Of a DNA stretch of 64,000 nucleotides, positions 22,294-28,958 are shown piece after piece; the stretch's first letter is position 1; each line of letters starts with the position of its first letter. Made by a program: the position numbers and the translations under genes. The notes under the pieces were generated by a model, which was not told the origin of the DNA, ran no database searches, and worked only from the letters and a program-made list of their open reading frames with translations. The DNA lies in NCBI GenBank assembly GCA_020849295.1, contig JADLGN010000005.1, forward strand, positions 186,001 through 250,000, read 5' to 3'. The stretch is from Bacteroidia bacterium (GTDB taxonomy: Bacteria; Bacteroidota; Bacteroidia; NS11-12g; UBA9320).

Positions 22294-23631
22294 ATGGATA
22301 AAAGTATTTTATTAATAGGTGCAGGTCTTTCTACAACACATCTTATTGAATATCTTGCTTCGCAAGGTAAAATGTATGGCTGGTCAATTACAATAGCCGA
22401 CTGTAATGAATTGCTTGCAAAATCAAAATCTGTTTTCTCAAATACTTCCTCTTTAAAACTTGACATAAACGAGATAGAACAACTAACTGATTCAATAAAA
22501 AATCATGATTTGGTGATAAGTATGTTGCCTCCATCTCTTCATTTAAATGTAGCTAAAATCTGCTTGGAATACAAAAAAAACTTGCTTACTGCATCGTATT
22601 TAACTGATGAAATGAAGGCTTTGGATAGAGAAATAAAAAATGCAGGTTTAATATTTTTAAATGAAATTGGGCTTGACCCCGGTATTGACCACCTAACAGC
22701 AATGAATATAATAGACAGATTAAAATCTGAAGGAAATTATATTAGAGAATTTGAAAGTTTTACTGGCGGACTTGTTGCACCTGAATACGAAAATAATCCA
22801 TGGCAATATAAATTTACATGGAACCCAAAAAATGTTGTACTTGCAGGACAGGGAGGTGCTGTAAAATTTTTACAGGAAGGACAATACAAATATATTCCAT
22901 ATCATAAAATTTTCAGACGAACTGAAATTATTGAAATTGACAATTATGGAAAATTTGAAGGATATGCAAACAGAGATTCGCTTAAATATATAGAAACGTA
23001 TGGATTACATGATATAAAAACTATGTTTCGTGGAACATTGAGGCGCCCTGGTTTTTGCAAAGCATGGGATGCTTTTGTTAGCCTTGGTGCTACAGATGAC
23101 AGCTACATAATTGAAAATTCTGAAAACATGACTTATCGCGAATTTATTAATACTTTTTTGGCTTATCATCCAACAGATTCTGTAGAAATAAAATTGAAAT
23201 ATTACCTTCATATTGACCAAGACGAACAAGAACTTTGGGAAAAACTTGAATGGCTTGATATTTTTAAACCAATAAAAATTGGATTAAAAAGTGCAAGTCC
23301 GGCTCAAATTCTGCAAAGTATTCTCGAAAGGAAATGGGCTATTGGCAAAGACGAAAAAGATATGATTGTAATGTGGCACAAATTTGTTTACTACAAAAAT
23401 GAACAAAGAAATGAACTCCATAGTTCTGTGGTGGTAAAAGGTGAAAACCGCCAACATACATCAATGAGCAAAACTGTAGGCTTGCCATTGGGTATTGCTG
23501 CAAAATTAATTTTACAAAATAAAATTGCTTCTAAAGGAGCTTTAATTCCTGTTTTGCCTGAATTTTATATTCCTATACTTGCAGAATTAAAAAATTATGG
23601 AATAGAGTGTAATGAAAAAATCATTACTTGA
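22294..23631 (+). CDS. Saccharopine dehydrogenase family protein
   Basis: A 445-aa NAD(P)-dependent oxidoreductase. The N-terminus has a Rossmann loop (ILLIGAGLSTTHLIEYLA), then SMLPPSLHLNVAKICLE and LNEIGLDPGIDHLTAMN, the conserved substrate-domain segment of saccharopine dehydrogenases. Later segments TFRGTLRRPGFC-like (MFRGTLRRPGFCKAWD) are typical of the L-glutamate-forming / reductase-like branch. It probably interconverts saccharopine and amino-acid semialdehyde in lysine metabolism; no other lysine gene is nearby, so the direction is not evident. It overlaps the convergent DUF4249 gene by 8 bases. Confidence 0.88.
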   Translation: MDKSILLIGAGLSTTHLIEYLASQGKMYGWSITIADCNELLAKSKSVFSNTSSLKLDINEIEQLTDSIKNHDLVISMLPPSLHLNVAKICLEYKKNLLTASYLTDEMKALDREIKNAGLIFLNEIGLDPGIDHLTAMNIIDRLKSEGNYIREFESFTGGLVAPEYENNPWQYKFTWNPKNVVLAGQGGAVKFLQEGQYKYIPYHKIFRRTEIIEIDNYGKFEGYANRDSLKYIETYGLHDIKTMFRGTLRRPGFCKAWDAFVSLGATDDSYIIENSENMTYREFINTFLAYHPTDSVEIKLKYYLHIDQDEQELWEKLEWLDIFKPIKIGLKSASPAQILQSILERKWAIGKDEKDMIVMWHKFVYYKNEQRNELHSSVVVKGENRQHTSMSKTVGLPLGIAAKLILQNKIASKGALIPVLPEFYIPILAELKNYGIECNEKIIT

Positions 23632-24586
23632 TTACCCAAATTGTATCTGTTCTATGATACTGTGATGCCATAAGACCAAGCCCTCCTTGAACATTTGAAA
23701 ATAAATTAATAGGATTGTAATATGAAGTCCCAAAAATTGCATTGTTTTTATTTTCTGTACTAAAAAATTTATAGTAATCTTCTGAAATTTTAATACAGTT
23801 AATAACAGCAAATCTTTTATTACATACTAAAATATTTCTAATAATGTTATCATTTTTTGTTTTGCCCGATGGAATAAAAATGTTGCTTGAAACAGAATTA
23901 GCAATAAAAAAAATAAAGGTTTTAAGCTTTCCATTAAACAATACATCATTTACAGGAAAAGTATAGTTTTGTTGTCCGTTTTGATATGAAGTAATTAAAT
24001 TGTAATTAAGACTTGGTTCATCAAATTTGTCAAATTTTTTTATATACAGATAATTAGAATCTATGACTTTGTCAAATAAAGAATCATAAAGAATGCCGTA
24101 ATTATATATTTTCAAATCAAATCTGTAAGCATCAAAATTATTTAGATTATCTTCTATTGAATATTTTAATTGGGCACTTTCTCCTTTACTTAATTCTATT
24201 GTAGGTTCCTTAGTTTTAATATATGTTTGAGTGTTAGCCAAAATATTAAACTCTGGGCTTACAATTTCAATTTTATATGTGCTGTTTGGCAATGCATTAA
24301 TATTAAAATCAAATGTTTGGGGTATTGAAGAAATATTTACTGAATTTAGTTTTTTAATTAAGTTCTCTTCTTTGTAAAGTAAAATATTAGCTATTATGCC
24401 GGATAATGTATCACTAGGTTTTACACCCTTATTTACAGCAATAGTTGCTTTAATACTGCTATCAATATTCAGTATTGACCATAAAACAATTTTACCCTTA
24501 TATCCACTATTGCTTATTTCGAGCTCTTTAATACATGAACTCAAAACAATGGCTGCAATAATTATAATACTAAAATGAAATTTCAT
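23624..24586 (-). CDS. DUF4249-family lipoprotein
   Basis: A 320-aa protein with a lipoprotein signal (IIAAIVLSSC, Cys18) and the DUF4249 start pattern: a short Ig-like strand set (GKIVLWSILNIDSSIKATI, LPNSTYKIEIVSPEF). Proteins of this family in Bacteroidota are regularly encoded directly after TonB-dependent receptors and are thought to be surface partners, in the way SusD serves SusC; the substrate is unknown. It overlaps the end of the receptor gene by 17 bases, so translation is probably coupled. It is last in the sigma-FecR-receptor operon. Confidence 0.85.
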   Translation of the reverse strand: MKFHFSIIIIAAIVLSSCIKELEISNSGYKGKIVLWSILNIDSSIKATIAVNKGVKPSDTLSGIIANILLYKEENLIKKLNSVNISSIPQTFDFNINALPNSTYKIEIVSPEFNILANTQTYIKTKEPTIELSKGESAQLKYSIEDNLNNFDAYRFDLKIYNYGILYDSLFDKVIDSNYLYIKKFDKFDEPSLNYNLITSYQNGQQNYTFPVNDVLFNGKLKTFIFFIANSVSSNIFIPSGKTKNDNIIRNILVCNKRFAVINCIKISEDYYKFFSTENKNNAIFGTSYYNPINLFSNVQGGLGLMASQYHRTDTIWVIK

Positions 24587-27209
24587 AATTTATATATGGG
24601 ATTAATGGCATTAGCCCTACTTCATAAAATTTTAAATTTGTTTGATTTGAAACTAAAAAATAGTTAGTTGTAATAAAAACAGGATTCAAATGACTGTATA
24701 TATTATATGCACCAATATTTATAGTTCTCTTACGGCTTTTATATATTTTAGACTTGCATAATGATACGTCCATTCTGTGATATGATGACATTCTCACATT
24801 GTTTCTTTCGGTAAATTCGTAATAATTTTTATTTCCAATTGTATATACAGAAGTTGGTATAGTAACAGGATTGCCAGAAGTAAAAATCCAACTTAATGAC
24901 ACAAACCACTTATTTTTTATAGAAGGAAATTTGATATAAGCTGTTACTTGATGTCTTCTGTCGTATTTAAATGGAAATGTTTTTCCACCATTAATATCTT
25001 TAAAATTTCTATCAGATTTTGATAATGCATACCCAAACCATCCTTTAATTTTTCCGCTTTGCTTTTCTATTAATATTTCTGCCCCACGTGCTGTGCCATT
25101 TCCAATATAAAATGACTTATCCCAATCATATCCGCCAAATACAAAGTATTTTCCTTCTTTAAGTTCAACCAAATTGTACATTTTTTTATAATATGTTTCA
25201 ACCGAAAACCTATATTTATTGTTAATAGTATAAAAAAAAGAAGCAGTAATTTGGTCTGAAATCTGTGGTTTTAATACATCAGTTACAGGAATCCAAATAT
25301 CAATAGGCAAACCAATACTGTTGTTTGGCAAAATTTGCAGGTTTTGCTGCATTCTTGAATAAGTTGTATTGAAAAATAGTTTCTTTGAAAAAGCTATGTT
25401 AGCACTTGTTCTGGGTTGAACATTTATGTAGTTTTTATTTTTTACATTAATCAAATTAAAACTACATCCCAATTTTAGGTTTATCCTTTTATTAATTTTA
25501 ATATTATCTTCAACAAAAGCGTTTGTCTCAAGCGAGTATATGTTTCTGTCGCCTATAGAAGTATCATAATTTTGTTCATTAAATTTTGATAGATAATCAA
25601 GAGTACCGGTATTGAATTTATGATAAATTAAATCTATTCCACCTATAATATTATGTTTATTATTTAAATTAATTTCTAATACACTATTGAAAAAATAATC
25701 AGCATTACCGCTGGTTTGCTTATATAAAACTGACGAAATATTTTTAAACGGTTGTTGTTTTGTTTCCCAAGTTATTTCATCTTCAAATTTTGTTTTATAT
25801 TGTGTAATTCCTATTGCATTTGTCATAAAAATTTTATCTGTAAGAATTCTATCCCACCTTATACTTGACATGTTTGTATTCCAAAGTAATTGTTTATTTT
25901 GCTCACGTTTTTCAAGATTTTCTATTGAATCTGCAAATGTTTGTTTTTCGGTAATTTTTCCTCTGTCAACTCCCTTAAAAAAATTAACTGTTATCTTATC
26001 TCGGCTACCTATTTTATAATTTGCTTTAGCATTAAAATCATAAAAATAATACCAACCTGAATAATTGTTCAATGATTTTCGATTTGAGAAATATTGAAAC
26101 GGCTGATAAAATGCATCAAAATATGTTCTGCGAAATGCAATAATAAAAGATGATTTATTTTTAATAATTGGTCCTTCGAGTGTAATAGATGAAAGAAATA
26201 ATCCCAAATTTATGTTCCCGGAAAGCTTGTAATAATTTCCATCTTTAAGTTTAACATCTAAAATAGATGATAATCTCCCATTATGTTTTGATGAGAATCC
26301 TCCTTTTATTAATTCGATTGAATTTACTGCACATGGATTTATTATTGAAAACAATCCAAAAACATGAACTATATTATAAACAGGCACCCCATCAATTAAA
26401 ATAAGATTTTGGTCTGTACTACCTCCTCTTACATTCAAACCGCCCGAACTCTCGCCCGAGCTTTGTACTCCCGGAAGTATTTGTACAGATCTAAGCACAT
26501 CAGGTTCTCCTAAAAATGATGGAATTTCTTTTATTGCTTTATTATTATAGGAAAATGAATTTGGTTTTTGTTCGTATTTTGATTGTTTTTCGTCAGTTAT
26601 ATCTATTTCTTTAAGGTTTGTGTTTGGTTCAAGTTTGATTATTTTAAAAGAATTTGACTTGTTATGGCTTTTTTCTATATAATTGCTAAATCCTATATAT
26701 TTTACTTCAAGTAATATGGAGTCTCCTGGCAGTGTAATTGTGAAAAACCCAAAGTCATTTGTAAATGTCCCTTTTTTATTTAATCTGCAATAAACGCTTG
26801 CACCTATTAATTTTTCGCCGCTTGATTTGTCAATAATGTATCCCGAAATTGTATAGTTTGTATTTGATTTCTTTTTTACTTGTTTTAATATTATCGAATT
26901 CCCTCCAAAGTATTTAAACTCTACATTGTATGGACTCAGCAATTTTATTAGAATTTCTGATAATTTTTCATTCTCGGCATTAAAACTTGGTATTTTTTCA
27001 TTTCTGAAAATTGAAGATTTATAATTAAACGATACTTTTACCTTTGATTGCAGTTGCTTTAAAATTTCGGGGACAGTCTTTTCAGTTGTATTAATTGAAA
27101 TTATTTTATCTAGTGGATTATTATTTTGTCCATAAGATTTTTCACTTTTAAATAAAGTAAAAAAAAGAAGAGTAACAATGAAAATATGATTACAATGGTG
27201 AAAATTCAC
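24570..27209 (-). CDS. TonB-dependent receptor with N-terminal STN-like and carboxypeptidase-like domains
   Basis: An 879-aa outer-membrane importer. After a signal peptide (to about 28) comes an STN-like domain (about 35-110: EILKQLQSKVKVSFNY, LIKLLSPYNVEF), as found in receptors that signal to FecR. A carboxypeptidase-like regulatory domain follows (about 125-205: ISGYIIDKSSGEKLIGASVYC). The plug domain is at about 220-330 (DVLRSVQILPGVQ, GGLNVRGGSTDQNLILIDGVPVYN, split here), then a 22-strand barrel ending YINYEISF. The STN-like domain together with upstream fecR and sigma genes indicates a cell-surface signalling receptor. The nutrient is not evident; there is no SusD or glycosidase nearby. 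Confidence 0.92.
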   Translation of the reverse strand: MNFHHCNHIFIVTLLFFTLFKSEKSYGQNNNPLDKIISINTTEKTVPEILKQLQSKVKVSFNYKSSIFRNEKIPSFNAENEKLSEILIKLLSPYNVEFKYFGGNSIILKQVKKKSNTNYTISGYIIDKSSGEKLIGASVYCRLNKKGTFTNDFGFFTITLPGDSILLEVKYIGFSNYIEKSHNKSNSFKIIKLEPNTNLKEIDITDEKQSKYEQKPNSFSYNNKAIKEIPSFLGEPDVLRSVQILPGVQSSGESSGGLNVRGGSTDQNLILIDGVPVYNIVHVFGLFSIINPCAVNSIELIKGGFSSKHNGRLSSILDVKLKDGNYYKLSGNINLGLFLSSITLEGPIIKNKSSFIIAFRRTYFDAFYQPFQYFSNRKSLNNYSGWYYFYDFNAKANYKIGSRDKITVNFFKGVDRGKITEKQTFADSIENLEKREQNKQLLWNTNMSSIRWDRILTDKIFMTNAIGITQYKTKFEDEITWETKQQPFKNISSVLYKQTSGNADYFFNSVLEINLNNKHNIIGGIDLIYHKFNTGTLDYLSKFNEQNYDTSIGDRNIYSLETNAFVEDNIKINKRINLKLGCSFNLINVKNKNYINVQPRTSANIAFSKKLFFNTTYSRMQQNLQILPNNSIGLPIDIWIPVTDVLKPQISDQITASFFYTINNKYRFSVETYYKKMYNLVELKEGKYFVFGGYDWDKSFYIGNGTARGAEILIEKQSGKIKGWFGYALSKSDRNFKDINGGKTFPFKYDRRHQVTAYIKFPSIKNKWFVSLSWIFTSGNPVTIPTSVYTIGNKNYYEFTERNNVRMSSYHRMDVSLCKSKIYKSRKRTINIGAYNIYSHLNPVFITTNYFLVSNQTNLKFYEVGLMPLIPYINYEISF

Positions 27210-27218
27210 CTTGTAAAA

Positions 27219-28199
27219 TTAATGATTTAAAAAATATTTTGATTTATTTTTCGAAATGTTCGATTCAGTTACACTTTCTAAAAGTTTTAATGAATTTTCA
27301 AGATTCATACCTTCAAATGAAACAGTGTATTTTTCGTCTTTTTTATTGTCAGGTATAATTAATGTAATATTATATCTTATTTGTAGTTTTTCAGCAATTA
27401 TCTGTAATTTAACATCTTTAAATATGAGTTTATTCTCCCAAAATTTTACATCATTACTTTGTATTTTGCTTATTTTTATTTTGTCTGTATTTGTATTAAA
27501 TATTAGTTTTTCGCCAGGTGTTAATTCATTTGAGTTTTTATTAGATATAAAATTAACCTTCCCTTCGTAAAGACTAATTTCTACTTTGTTTTTATCATTT
27601 TTTGCTTTAAAAATTGTGCCTAAAACTTTAATAAATGTATTGTTTGATTTGGCTATAAAAGGTTTCGATTTTTCTTTTGCAATTTCAAAATATGCTTCTC
27701 CTTTTATTTCTACTAGTCGATTTTTGATATTAAAATCTTTATCTACTGTTAATTTTGAATTTTGATTTAATGTAATAACACTGCCGTCAGAAAGTGCAAT
27801 ATCAATAATTTCATTGTTTGATGTTGTAAATGTTTTTCCAATATTAAATTTATTAAAATCTTTAATACTATTGCCTTTGTAAAACAAAAACCATGCAGTA
27901 ACAATAAGTAAAACTGATGCTGCAGCATACTTTAATAAGTTAAAATACGAAAAATTAAACTTCTTATTTTGTTCTAATGTAATTGATTTGTTAAGAGACT
28001 CCCAGTTTAGTTCTGTAGCGGGGTTTACTTTATATATATCAGAACTTAAAAAATCAACATTTATTTTTTGCAATATTTCTAATTCGCTTTTCCAAAATTT
28101 ATCTTCTGAGATTAATTTTTCAATAAAAATAATTTCAGAAGATGATGCTTCTCCATCTGCATATTTAATAAGTAAATTATAAATTTCGTTTTTGTTCAT
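27219..28199 (-). CDS. FecR-type anti-sigma factor
   Basis: A 326-aa single-pass membrane protein. The N-terminal cytoplasmic part (1-85: YNLLIKYADGEASSSEIIFIEKLI) would bind the ECF sigma factor, one TM segment follows (about 88-108: LKYAAASVLLIVTAWFLFY), then the periplasmic FecR domain (about 115-220: GSVITLNQNSKL, VEIKGEAYFEIAK, FIKVLGTIF) and a C-terminal STN-like interaction domain ending NHF-like residues. By family it senses the loaded TonB receptor and controls the sigma factor. It lies 9 bases ahead of the receptor gene and directly after the 51-aa ORF, whose stop abuts its ATG. Confidence 0.92.
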   Translation of the reverse strand: MNKNEIYNLLIKYADGEASSSEIIFIEKLISEDKFWKSELEILQKINVDFLSSDIYKVNPATELNWESLNKSITLEQNKKFNFSYFNLLKYAAASVLLIVTAWFLFYKGNSIKDFNKFNIGKTFTTSNNEIIDIALSDGSVITLNQNSKLTVDKDFNIKNRLVEIKGEAYFEIAKEKSKPFIAKSNNTFIKVLGTIFKAKNDKNKVEISLYEGKVNFISNKNSNELTPGEKLIFNTNTDKIKISKIQSNDVKFWENKLIFKDVKLQIIAEKLQIRYNITLIIPDNKKDEKYTVSFEGMNLENSLKLLESVTESNISKNKSKYFLNH

Positions 28200-28355
28200 T
28201 TATTTACTTGCCAAAGCAAGTGATTGCTCAATATGATTATAAAATAATTTGTTGTATTGATTTTCATTAAGCCAAATCTTTACATATTGTTTTTCTTCAT
28301 TATTGCACTTATTCAAGATATAGCGTGCTATTATGTTTCCTTCTGCAAATTCCAT
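28200..28355 (-). CDS. 51-aa ORF resembling a FecR N-terminal domain
   Basis: Reading from ATG at 28355 to TAA at 28200 gives a 51-aa protein (start MEFAEGNIIARYILNKCNN, end QSLALASK). Its pattern ARYILxxxxNEEKQYVKIWL, followed by a spaced FYNHIEQSL, resembles the sigma-binding N-terminal segment of FecR proteins, but it stops before any TM segment. Its stop TAA is immediately followed by the fecR ATG, which suggests translational coupling. It is too short for most gene callers. It could be a free sigma-binding peptide or a remnant of a duplicated fecR start. No homology search could be run. Confidence 0.55.
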   Translation of the reverse strand: MEFAEGNIIARYILNKCNNEEKQYVKIWLNENQYNKLFYNHIEQSLALASK

Positions 28356-28424: not shown

Positions 28425-28958
28425 TTATAAATTTTCCACTAAAGAACTAATTATCAGAAATAAAAATATAAAATAATTTTTTCTTAAAAACTTCAATGCG
28501 TTGGCAATTTGGTTTTCTACTGTTTTTATTGAAATTTCAAGAGTTTCGGCTATTTCTTTATAGCTCATATTCTCAAAGCGGCTTAAAATAAAAACTTCGC
28601 GACATTTTTCAGGCAATTTATTTATAAGTTTGTCAATTTTTTCAGCAGATTGTCGGCTTTCTATTATGTCAATTGGTGTATTATTTTCTAAAAAAACATT
28701 TTCCATAAATCCATCACTTTCACTTAAAAAACTTTTTTCTCTTGAAAGTTTATTATAGCATCGGTTTTTAATGGCTTTTAGCAAATATGGTTTGGGATTG
28801 GGCGGTAATATCAAAGTTTGTTTTTTCTCCCATAAATTTTTAAATAATTCTTGAACTATATCTATTGAATCATGTTCATTTTTAAGATAAAAATTTGCAA
28901 ATTTTACCAGCAAAGGTTGATAGGTTTTGTATAATATTTCAAATTGTATTATATCCAA
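28425..28958 (-). CDS. ECF-family RNA polymerase sigma factor
   Basis: A 177-aa sigma-70 relative of the Bacteroidota FecI-like group. Region 2 lies at about 5-75 (FEILYKTYQPLLVKFANFYL, IVQELFKNLWEKK, KPYLLKAIKNRCYN) and region 4 at about 115-160 (LPEKCREVFILSRFENMSYKEIAETL, split here; ISIKTVENQIANALKFLR). It has no region 3. The frame has TTG at 28958 as its only sensible start, giving DIIQFEILYKTY at once. It ends in a hydrophobic tail (YFIFLFLIISSLVENL) not needed for DNA binding. It heads an operon with the 51-aa ORF, fecR, TonB receptor and DUF4249 and should turn that operon on when the receptor is loaded. Confidence 0.9.
   Translation of the reverse strand: MDIIQFEILYKTYQPLLVKFANFYLKNEHDSIDIVQELFKNLWEKKQTLILPPNPKPYLLKAIKNRCYNKLSREKSFLSESDGFMENVFLENNTPIDIIESRQSAEKIDKLINKLPEKCREVFILSRFENMSYKEIAETLEISIKTVENQIANALKFLRKNYFIFLFLIISSLVENL

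Follow-up and report, generated by a model that had tools for sequence, protein, structure and literature searches.

Does the short ORF between a sigma factor gene and a fecR-like gene encode a protein, and if so, what does it share with the FecR encoded next to it? The question is raised by the window analysed here, a stretch of 64,000 nt from a Bacteroidia bacterium, in which a 51-codon ORF follows the gene of an ECF sigma factor and runs directly into fecR. An earlier note had proposed that the product resembles the sigma-binding N-terminal end of FecR and, as a soluble protein unconnected to the receptor signal, could form a second layer of control on the sigma factor.

Layout of the locus

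The genes and segments concerned are the following.

28425..28958, minus strand: ECF sigma factor, 177 aa, the presumed target (TIGR02985, 157.5 bits against a cut-off of 126.4)
28200..28355 including the stop codon, minus strand: small ORF, 51 aa, a putative free-standing FecR-type anti-sigma domain (helices 1-3), based on the ORF, conservation, profile, dN/dS, model and W28
27219..28199, minus strand: fecR-like membrane regulator, 326 aa (PF04773 at 123-216, PF16344 at 257-319)
28056..28187, minus strand: degenerate helices 1-3 of the sigma-binding domain of FecR itself, about residues 5-48 (limits by eye)
27981..28022, minus strand: retained FecR helix-4 segment, about residues 60-73, with W66 (from the alignment; limits by eye)
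24570..27209, minus strand: TonB-dependent receptor, 879 aa, the presumed signal receptor (STN-like, CarbopepD_reg_2 and Plug)
23624..24586, minus strand: DUF4249 protein (PF14054), overlapping the end of the receptor gene on the same strand

The small ORF (28355..28200, minus strand) consists of an ATG start, 51 codons and a TAA. The sigma gene lies upstream at a gap of 69 nt, and base 28199 opens fecR, so the TAA abuts the fecR ATG just as the earlier note had it. The STN-like score of the receptor, 27.0 bits, is slightly below its cut-off of 28.4. In a genome-wide search the fecR of the window was the sole PF04773 match, and its sigma factor is the single one above the TIGR02985 cut-off found in the genome.

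Conservation of the small ORF

As 39 ORFs of at least 40 aa overlap the 10 kb listed around the small ORF, its length by itself says little, and it is conservation that raises it above chance. A six-frame search of 38 genomes of the window's family detected it in all seven genomes of the genus. In the six genus relatives it is 55-88% identical across the full ORF, and the adjoining FecR is 37-54% identical in the same six. All 30 loci of the family that carry the small ORF have it between an ECF sigma gene and fecR, in the order sigma, small ORF, FecR, with an open frame of 49-52 aa; in one of them, G036, the sigma gene is truncated by the contig end. When the sister family is included the frame is open in 30 + 58 loci, which bears out the conservation of the reading frame by which the earlier note would have its proposal judged.

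Of 11 pairs examined, 10 gave a usable dS for the small ORF, with dN/dS of 0-0.15; for FecR codons 2-76 it was 0.11-0.45 (10 pairs). In all nine pairs where both were defined the small ORF had the lower value, a sign of stronger purifying selection than on the FecR N-terminus. In the pair that includes the window's own gene the small-ORF dS was 2.9, which is near saturation. Residues N7, E21 and W28 are invariant in 66 aligned small proteins. The small ORF thus looks like a real, strongly conserved protein-coding gene; its translation, its binding to sigma and its joint action with FecR we infer from the sequence comparisons.

Similarity to the sigma-binding domain of FecR

A profile-profile comparison of the small proteins with FecR N-termini gave a probability of 98.75% (E 1.5e-16, 44 columns), and among 50 column-shuffled control profiles the maximum was 15.7%. 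The proposed likeness to the N-terminal sigma-binding region of FecR is thereby supported, as is the lack of a membrane anchor, for the 51 aa contain no long hydrophobic stretch by eye. The profile of 30 small proteins matched 82 of 395 genomes of the phylum, for the most part close to the beginning of frames some 300-430 aa long, and all 29 phylum loci fetched beyond the window's own were N-termini of frames that also hold the periplasmic part of FecR. The wider profile matched the window genome at one further place (G000 C31, E 1.7e-5), in a 544-aa frame, menD by eye; this match was taken as chance, and weak matches of the wider profile were for that reason left uncounted.

Pfam and NCBIfam gave no model match for the small protein, PF04773 included, and a sequence search of the PDB with its profile returned five weak matches to unrelated proteins (E at least 0.12). 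With E. coli FecR alone no significant profile match was obtained (best probability 6.5%), so mutant data from E. coli are carried over here through an alignment that is collinear but weak. In this alignment, W28 is placed opposite W39 of E. coli FecR, and if the two correspond, residues 1-51 of the small protein are roughly residues 12-62 of E. coli FecR.

The predicted structure (pLDDT 88.8, pTM 0.68) has helices at 2-6, 8-13, 19-31 and 33-50. A Foldseek search of the PDB (350,542 chains) listed 11 chains, of which 10, from four entries, are anti-sigma chains (RslA, RsiW, MucA) as judged from entry title and chain length. Their VIA Z against the model was 4.7-5.3, and Foldseek probabilities reached 0.54 with every E-value 2.6 or worse; with no Foldseek E below 1 and Z in that range, the fold evidence agrees with an anti-sigma domain and is not decisive.

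With regard to class, the zinc-binding anti-sigma (ZAS) motif is H-x3-C-x2-C. The small protein, in which C17 is the only Cys and H41 the only His, has no such motif. The marks of a full FecR, a membrane anchor and a periplasmic PF04773 domain, are also absent from it, and it is the next gene that has the domain. Profile similarity and the helix-2 Trp agree with a FecR-type (AS243) domain, and the sigma-gene linkage of that type is seen in 30/30 loci of the window family but in only 2/58 of the sister family. Helix 4 is absent from the chain, since the model ends with helix 33-50 and the helix-4 segment sits in FecR.

The FecR beside the small gene

We then considered what the adjoining FecR has kept. 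The comparison covers 111 of the 113 FecR places of the order, with G094 and L055 left out; L055 (G034 C40) has the small gene and is counted among the 30 family loci, and is omitted from the counts of FecR domain, Trp and helix 4. In the sister family none of the 58 FecR behind a small gene has a whole domain of its own (32 without a match, 26 matching with the end only). Of the 19 FecR of that family without a small gene, 15 have the full domain and an adjacent sigma gene, and 4 have none. In the window family, 27 of the 29 FecR with a small gene match the canonical profile over most of its length, one over the first half and one not at all. These matches are weak (E 0.04 to 4e-8); between the profile of the window-family FecR and the canonical profile the alignment spans 75 columns. 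The helices 1-3 region of the window's own FecR matches weakly (E 0.003) and has neither the hallmark Trp nor the Asn. Five FecR of the window family have no small gene; four of them match, three at 7e-13 to 1e-15 and one at 8e-7, and one does not.

The helix-2 Trp, W28 in the window, is found in all small proteins (30/30 in the window family and 58/58 in the sister family, 88/88). It occurs in 0/29 window-family FecR beside a small gene, where no Trp stands within a few columns either, and in 19/19 order FecR that have the full domain and no small gene; a further 5 of the 24 order FecR without a small gene are without the full domain. The helix-3 Asn is present in 30/30 window-family and 17/58 sister-family small proteins and in 1/29 FecR beside the gene. 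The helix-4 Trp, on the other hand, is retained in FecR beside the small gene in 27/29 cases in the window family and 54/58 in the sister family. From this pattern of Trp and domain, with the helix-4 Trp kept, the sigma-binding bundle looks to have been moved to a soluble subunit. The missing hallmark Trp of the one family (0/29) and the missing whole domain of the other (0/58) are at odds with a second layer of control next to an ordinary FecR. That reading was probably too modest, and the small protein seems instead to be the principal sigma-binding module, transferred out of FecR. Thirteen columns of the canonical domain (54-66) are covered both by the small proteins and by the truncated FecR of the sister family, hence a duplication followed by loss fits better than a clean cut.

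Elsewhere in the phylum, the helix-2 Trp was present in 29/29 FecR found via the small-protein profile, a count that is biased by the way the loci were found. In a sample chosen by the FecR domain, 14 of 29 had a recognised canonical anti-sigma domain, several of them being close relatives, and 13 of the 14 had the Trp (by eye). The other 15 of the 29 (L241-L269) have varied N-termini with no recognisable canonical domain and no small gene, so loss of the domain from FecR need not demand a separate partner. We also considered whether a split FecR with a small partner that has diverged is common in Bacteroidota, and rejected this, as none of the 11 loci inspected among these 15 showed a domain-like upstream ORF by eye (ORFs of at least 35 aa; for L248 and L259, which have no nearby sigma gene, about 600 nt upstream). 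Within the order, FecR of genus g19 (L161, which begins at the contig start, L168 and L170) have neither a small gene upstream nor a domain of their own, and carry a tandem repeat around 'EAASNDAAWERMKAAI' in which the helix-4 segment is repeated.

Distribution of the stand-alone gene

The analysis covered 108 genomes of the order, which fall in two families. The profile initially matched 89 of them; the match in G058 was removed, being the N-terminal end of a canonical FecR frame, and G082 was added. This leaves 89 genomes with a stand-alone small gene, 30 of the 38 of the window family and 59 of the 70 of the sister family. Of the 108 genomes, 96 have a PF04773 match. The small gene is present in 89 of these 96 and in none of the 12 genomes without a FecR match; those with FecR and no small gene are G026, G044, G050, G058, G065, G066 and G067. 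Small gene and fecR lie very close together in the sister family, with gaps of -14 to 24 nt and a median of 4 nt.

Outside the order, no convincing stand-alone copy was found in the samples of phylum and class (395 genomes each, with at most 17 and 16 candidates per genome scored, respectively), and at that depth rare copies could be missed. The two samples overlap and include order members. The class search also matched some short frames, 34, 94 and 103 aa in length, at E 0.002 to 0.01. The 29 phylum FecR loci that were picked solely by the FecR domain, each from a different genome, show no separate small domain upstream. The same small ORF between sigma and fecR genes, for which the earlier note suggested looking in other Bacteroidota, is present in the window family (30/30 loci) and was not seen in the phylum sample (0/29).

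Three metagenome-assembled genomes labelled Chitinophaga pinensis (L140, L141 and L143) fall in the window genus, whose genomes are of 2.0-3.3 Mb. As the type strain of C. pinensis has a much larger genome, the three seem to be mislabelled.

The presumed sigma partner

Of the 58 pairs of small gene and fecR in the sister family, 56 have no sigma gene nearby. We found exactly one sigma factor above the TIGR02985 cut-off in each of 12 genomes with a single FecR. It adjoins the small gene in the window genome, G063 and G064 and lies elsewhere in the other nine. In eight of these nine the unlinked sigma gene is beside a RecQ helicase (Pfam RQC, HRDC and RecQ zinc-binding), at the sister-family loci L210, L212, L213, L214, L218, L219, L220 and L221; the ninth adjoins a class II tRNA synthetase. 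This one-to-one presence suggests the unlinked TIGR02985 sigma factor as a candidate partner of the sister-family small protein.

One AlphaFold model was made of sigma, small protein and FecR(1-80) as a single read-through chain; 42 of 60 alignment rows were kept, the FecR-only rows being dropped as they had aligned onto the small protein. The model (pTM 0.39) has good local helices and no confident interface, and with such a pTM we make no statement on a complex of the three. Its best 50 of 243 Foldseek matches were mainly sigma factors, as expected. A read-through alignment of the sister genus was discarded, as MAFFT had placed the sigma rows badly.

The C-terminal end of the window's sigma factor is hydrophobic (NYFIFLFLIISSLVENL; 28428-28478, minus strand), and inspection by eye showed comparable tails at 5 of the 7 loci of the genus and on several sigma factors of the sister family; such a tail could touch the membrane. 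In part of the sister family (L126, L127, L130 and others) fecR is followed, by eye, not by the gene of a receptor-like STN protein but by the start of a long secreted-looking protein ('PNVGQ...'), hence the signal input may differ there.

A probable FecR in two pieces

We consider it probable, from the comparisons above, that the small protein, as a FecR-type anti-sigma domain in detached form, binds the neighbouring ECF sigma factor and forms the soluble half of a two-piece FecR. Its bundle of helices 1-3, the one that meets sigma region 4 in class I anti-sigma factors, would bind the sigma factor in the cytoplasm, and FecR would retain the membrane anchor, the periplasmic part that receives the signal and the helix-4 segment, which in class I anti-sigma factors contacts sigma region 2. 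A receptor signal passed on by FecR would then change how the complex of small protein and sigma factor is held at the membrane, and the sigma-bound form may be either inactive, as with an anti-sigma factor, or active, as with the pro-sigma fragment 1-59 of E. coli FecR. According to passages of PMC7406223, class I anti-sigma factors have a bundle of helices 1-3 joined by a flexible linker to helix 4, with helix 1 in contact with region 4 of the sigma factor and helix 4 with region 2; the FecR group is there described as aligning poorly with the other groups. The division seen here falls near that linker, with helices 1-3 in the small protein and helix 4 and the rest in FecR. We tentatively suggest, as a possibility with somewhat less than an even chance, a bipartite clamp in which the soluble small protein sits on sigma region 4 and FecR helix 4 on region 2.

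Several known systems resemble this arrangement in part. The E. coli FecI-FecR-FecA system likewise has an ECF sigma factor, a FecR with a periplasmic domain and a TonB-dependent receptor in a row, and in passages of PMC9249621 a soluble N-terminal piece of FecR is the sigma-interacting unit: 1-59 is the smallest inducing fragment, FecI interacts with residues 9-59, and the W39R change gives an induction-negative FecR. There, however, FecR itself contains the piece, which RseP cleavage releases (passages of PMC8144685), while here it is a gene of its own and the window's FecR is without the hallmark residues. Canonical Bacteroidota FecR, with the sigma gene followed directly by fecR, have the same domain ('YL.G.C...E....WL..s..N') but at the N-terminus of FecR itself. 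The predicted helix bundle of the small protein resembles, at the modest scores given above, those of class I RslA, RsiW and MucA, from which it differs in having neither helix 4 nor, with its one Cys, the zinc motif. IutY of Pseudomonas putida, as passages of PMC9249621 present it, is also a rearranged FecI/FecR-like system, but one in which sigma factor and regulator are fused in one chain, whereas here the regulator is divided. In the titles, abstract openings and passages covered by our literature search, which left subscription journals mostly outside, a separately encoded FecR anti-sigma domain is not described.

Several other explanations share part of this evidence. The small protein may be an autonomous soluble pro-sigma factor, an always-free equivalent of FecR 1-59 that binds the sigma factor and is needed for its activity, with FecR now a modulator or acting on something else. 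The E. coli fragments 1-59 and 1-85 do activate fec genes without a signal, the soluble 1-85 constitutively (passages of PMC9249621 and PMC8144685), and the small protein would cover much the same residues if W28 is W39; yet the alignment with E. coli is weak, and neither the close position beside fecR in the sister family nor the absence of the gene from the 12 genomes without a FecR match is explained, hence we regard this as unlikely, though worth keeping in mind. The view of the earlier note, an extra, receptor-independent soluble anti-sigma factor on top of a working FecR, gains from the 27 of 29 window-family FecR that still match the domain over its length and from the 75 aligned profile columns, and for the same reason FecR in this family may bind the sigma factor in another way. 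Those FecR nevertheless lack the hallmark Trp throughout and all but one lack the Asn, and behind the small gene of the sister family no whole domain is left, which makes an extra layer a rather poor prospect.

A partner other than a sigma factor, e.g. the cytoplasmic tail of FecR or a protease, would suit the 56 sister-family pairs that have no sigma gene nearby. It sits badly with the homology to sigma-binding domains, the likeness to anti-sigma structures and the one TIGR02985 sigma factor per genome in the 12 genomes, and we hold it to be quite improbable. That the small ORF is the N-terminal remnant of a broken fecR duplicate, decaying without function, is hardly credible: the 13-column overlap would suit such an origin, but the low dN/dS, the open frames of both families and the invariant N7, E21 and W28 contradict decay.

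If a clamp in two pieces is the true reading, signalling would proceed without intramembrane cleavage of the sigma-bound domain, since FecR and its soluble half would only have to separate; the split arrangement would be fixed across most of the order, and in one branch the sigma gene would have been relocated beside recQ. More generally, a conserved small gene can go unnoticed at FecR loci when a length cut-off, Pfam or NCBIfam is relied on. The N-terminal piece of FecR both holds the sigma factor and is needed for its activity, and how it does so is hard to dissect as long as it belongs to a membrane protein. In the loci described here it is set apart as a gene of its own with the membrane part beside it, and the roles of the pieces may therefore be tested separately.
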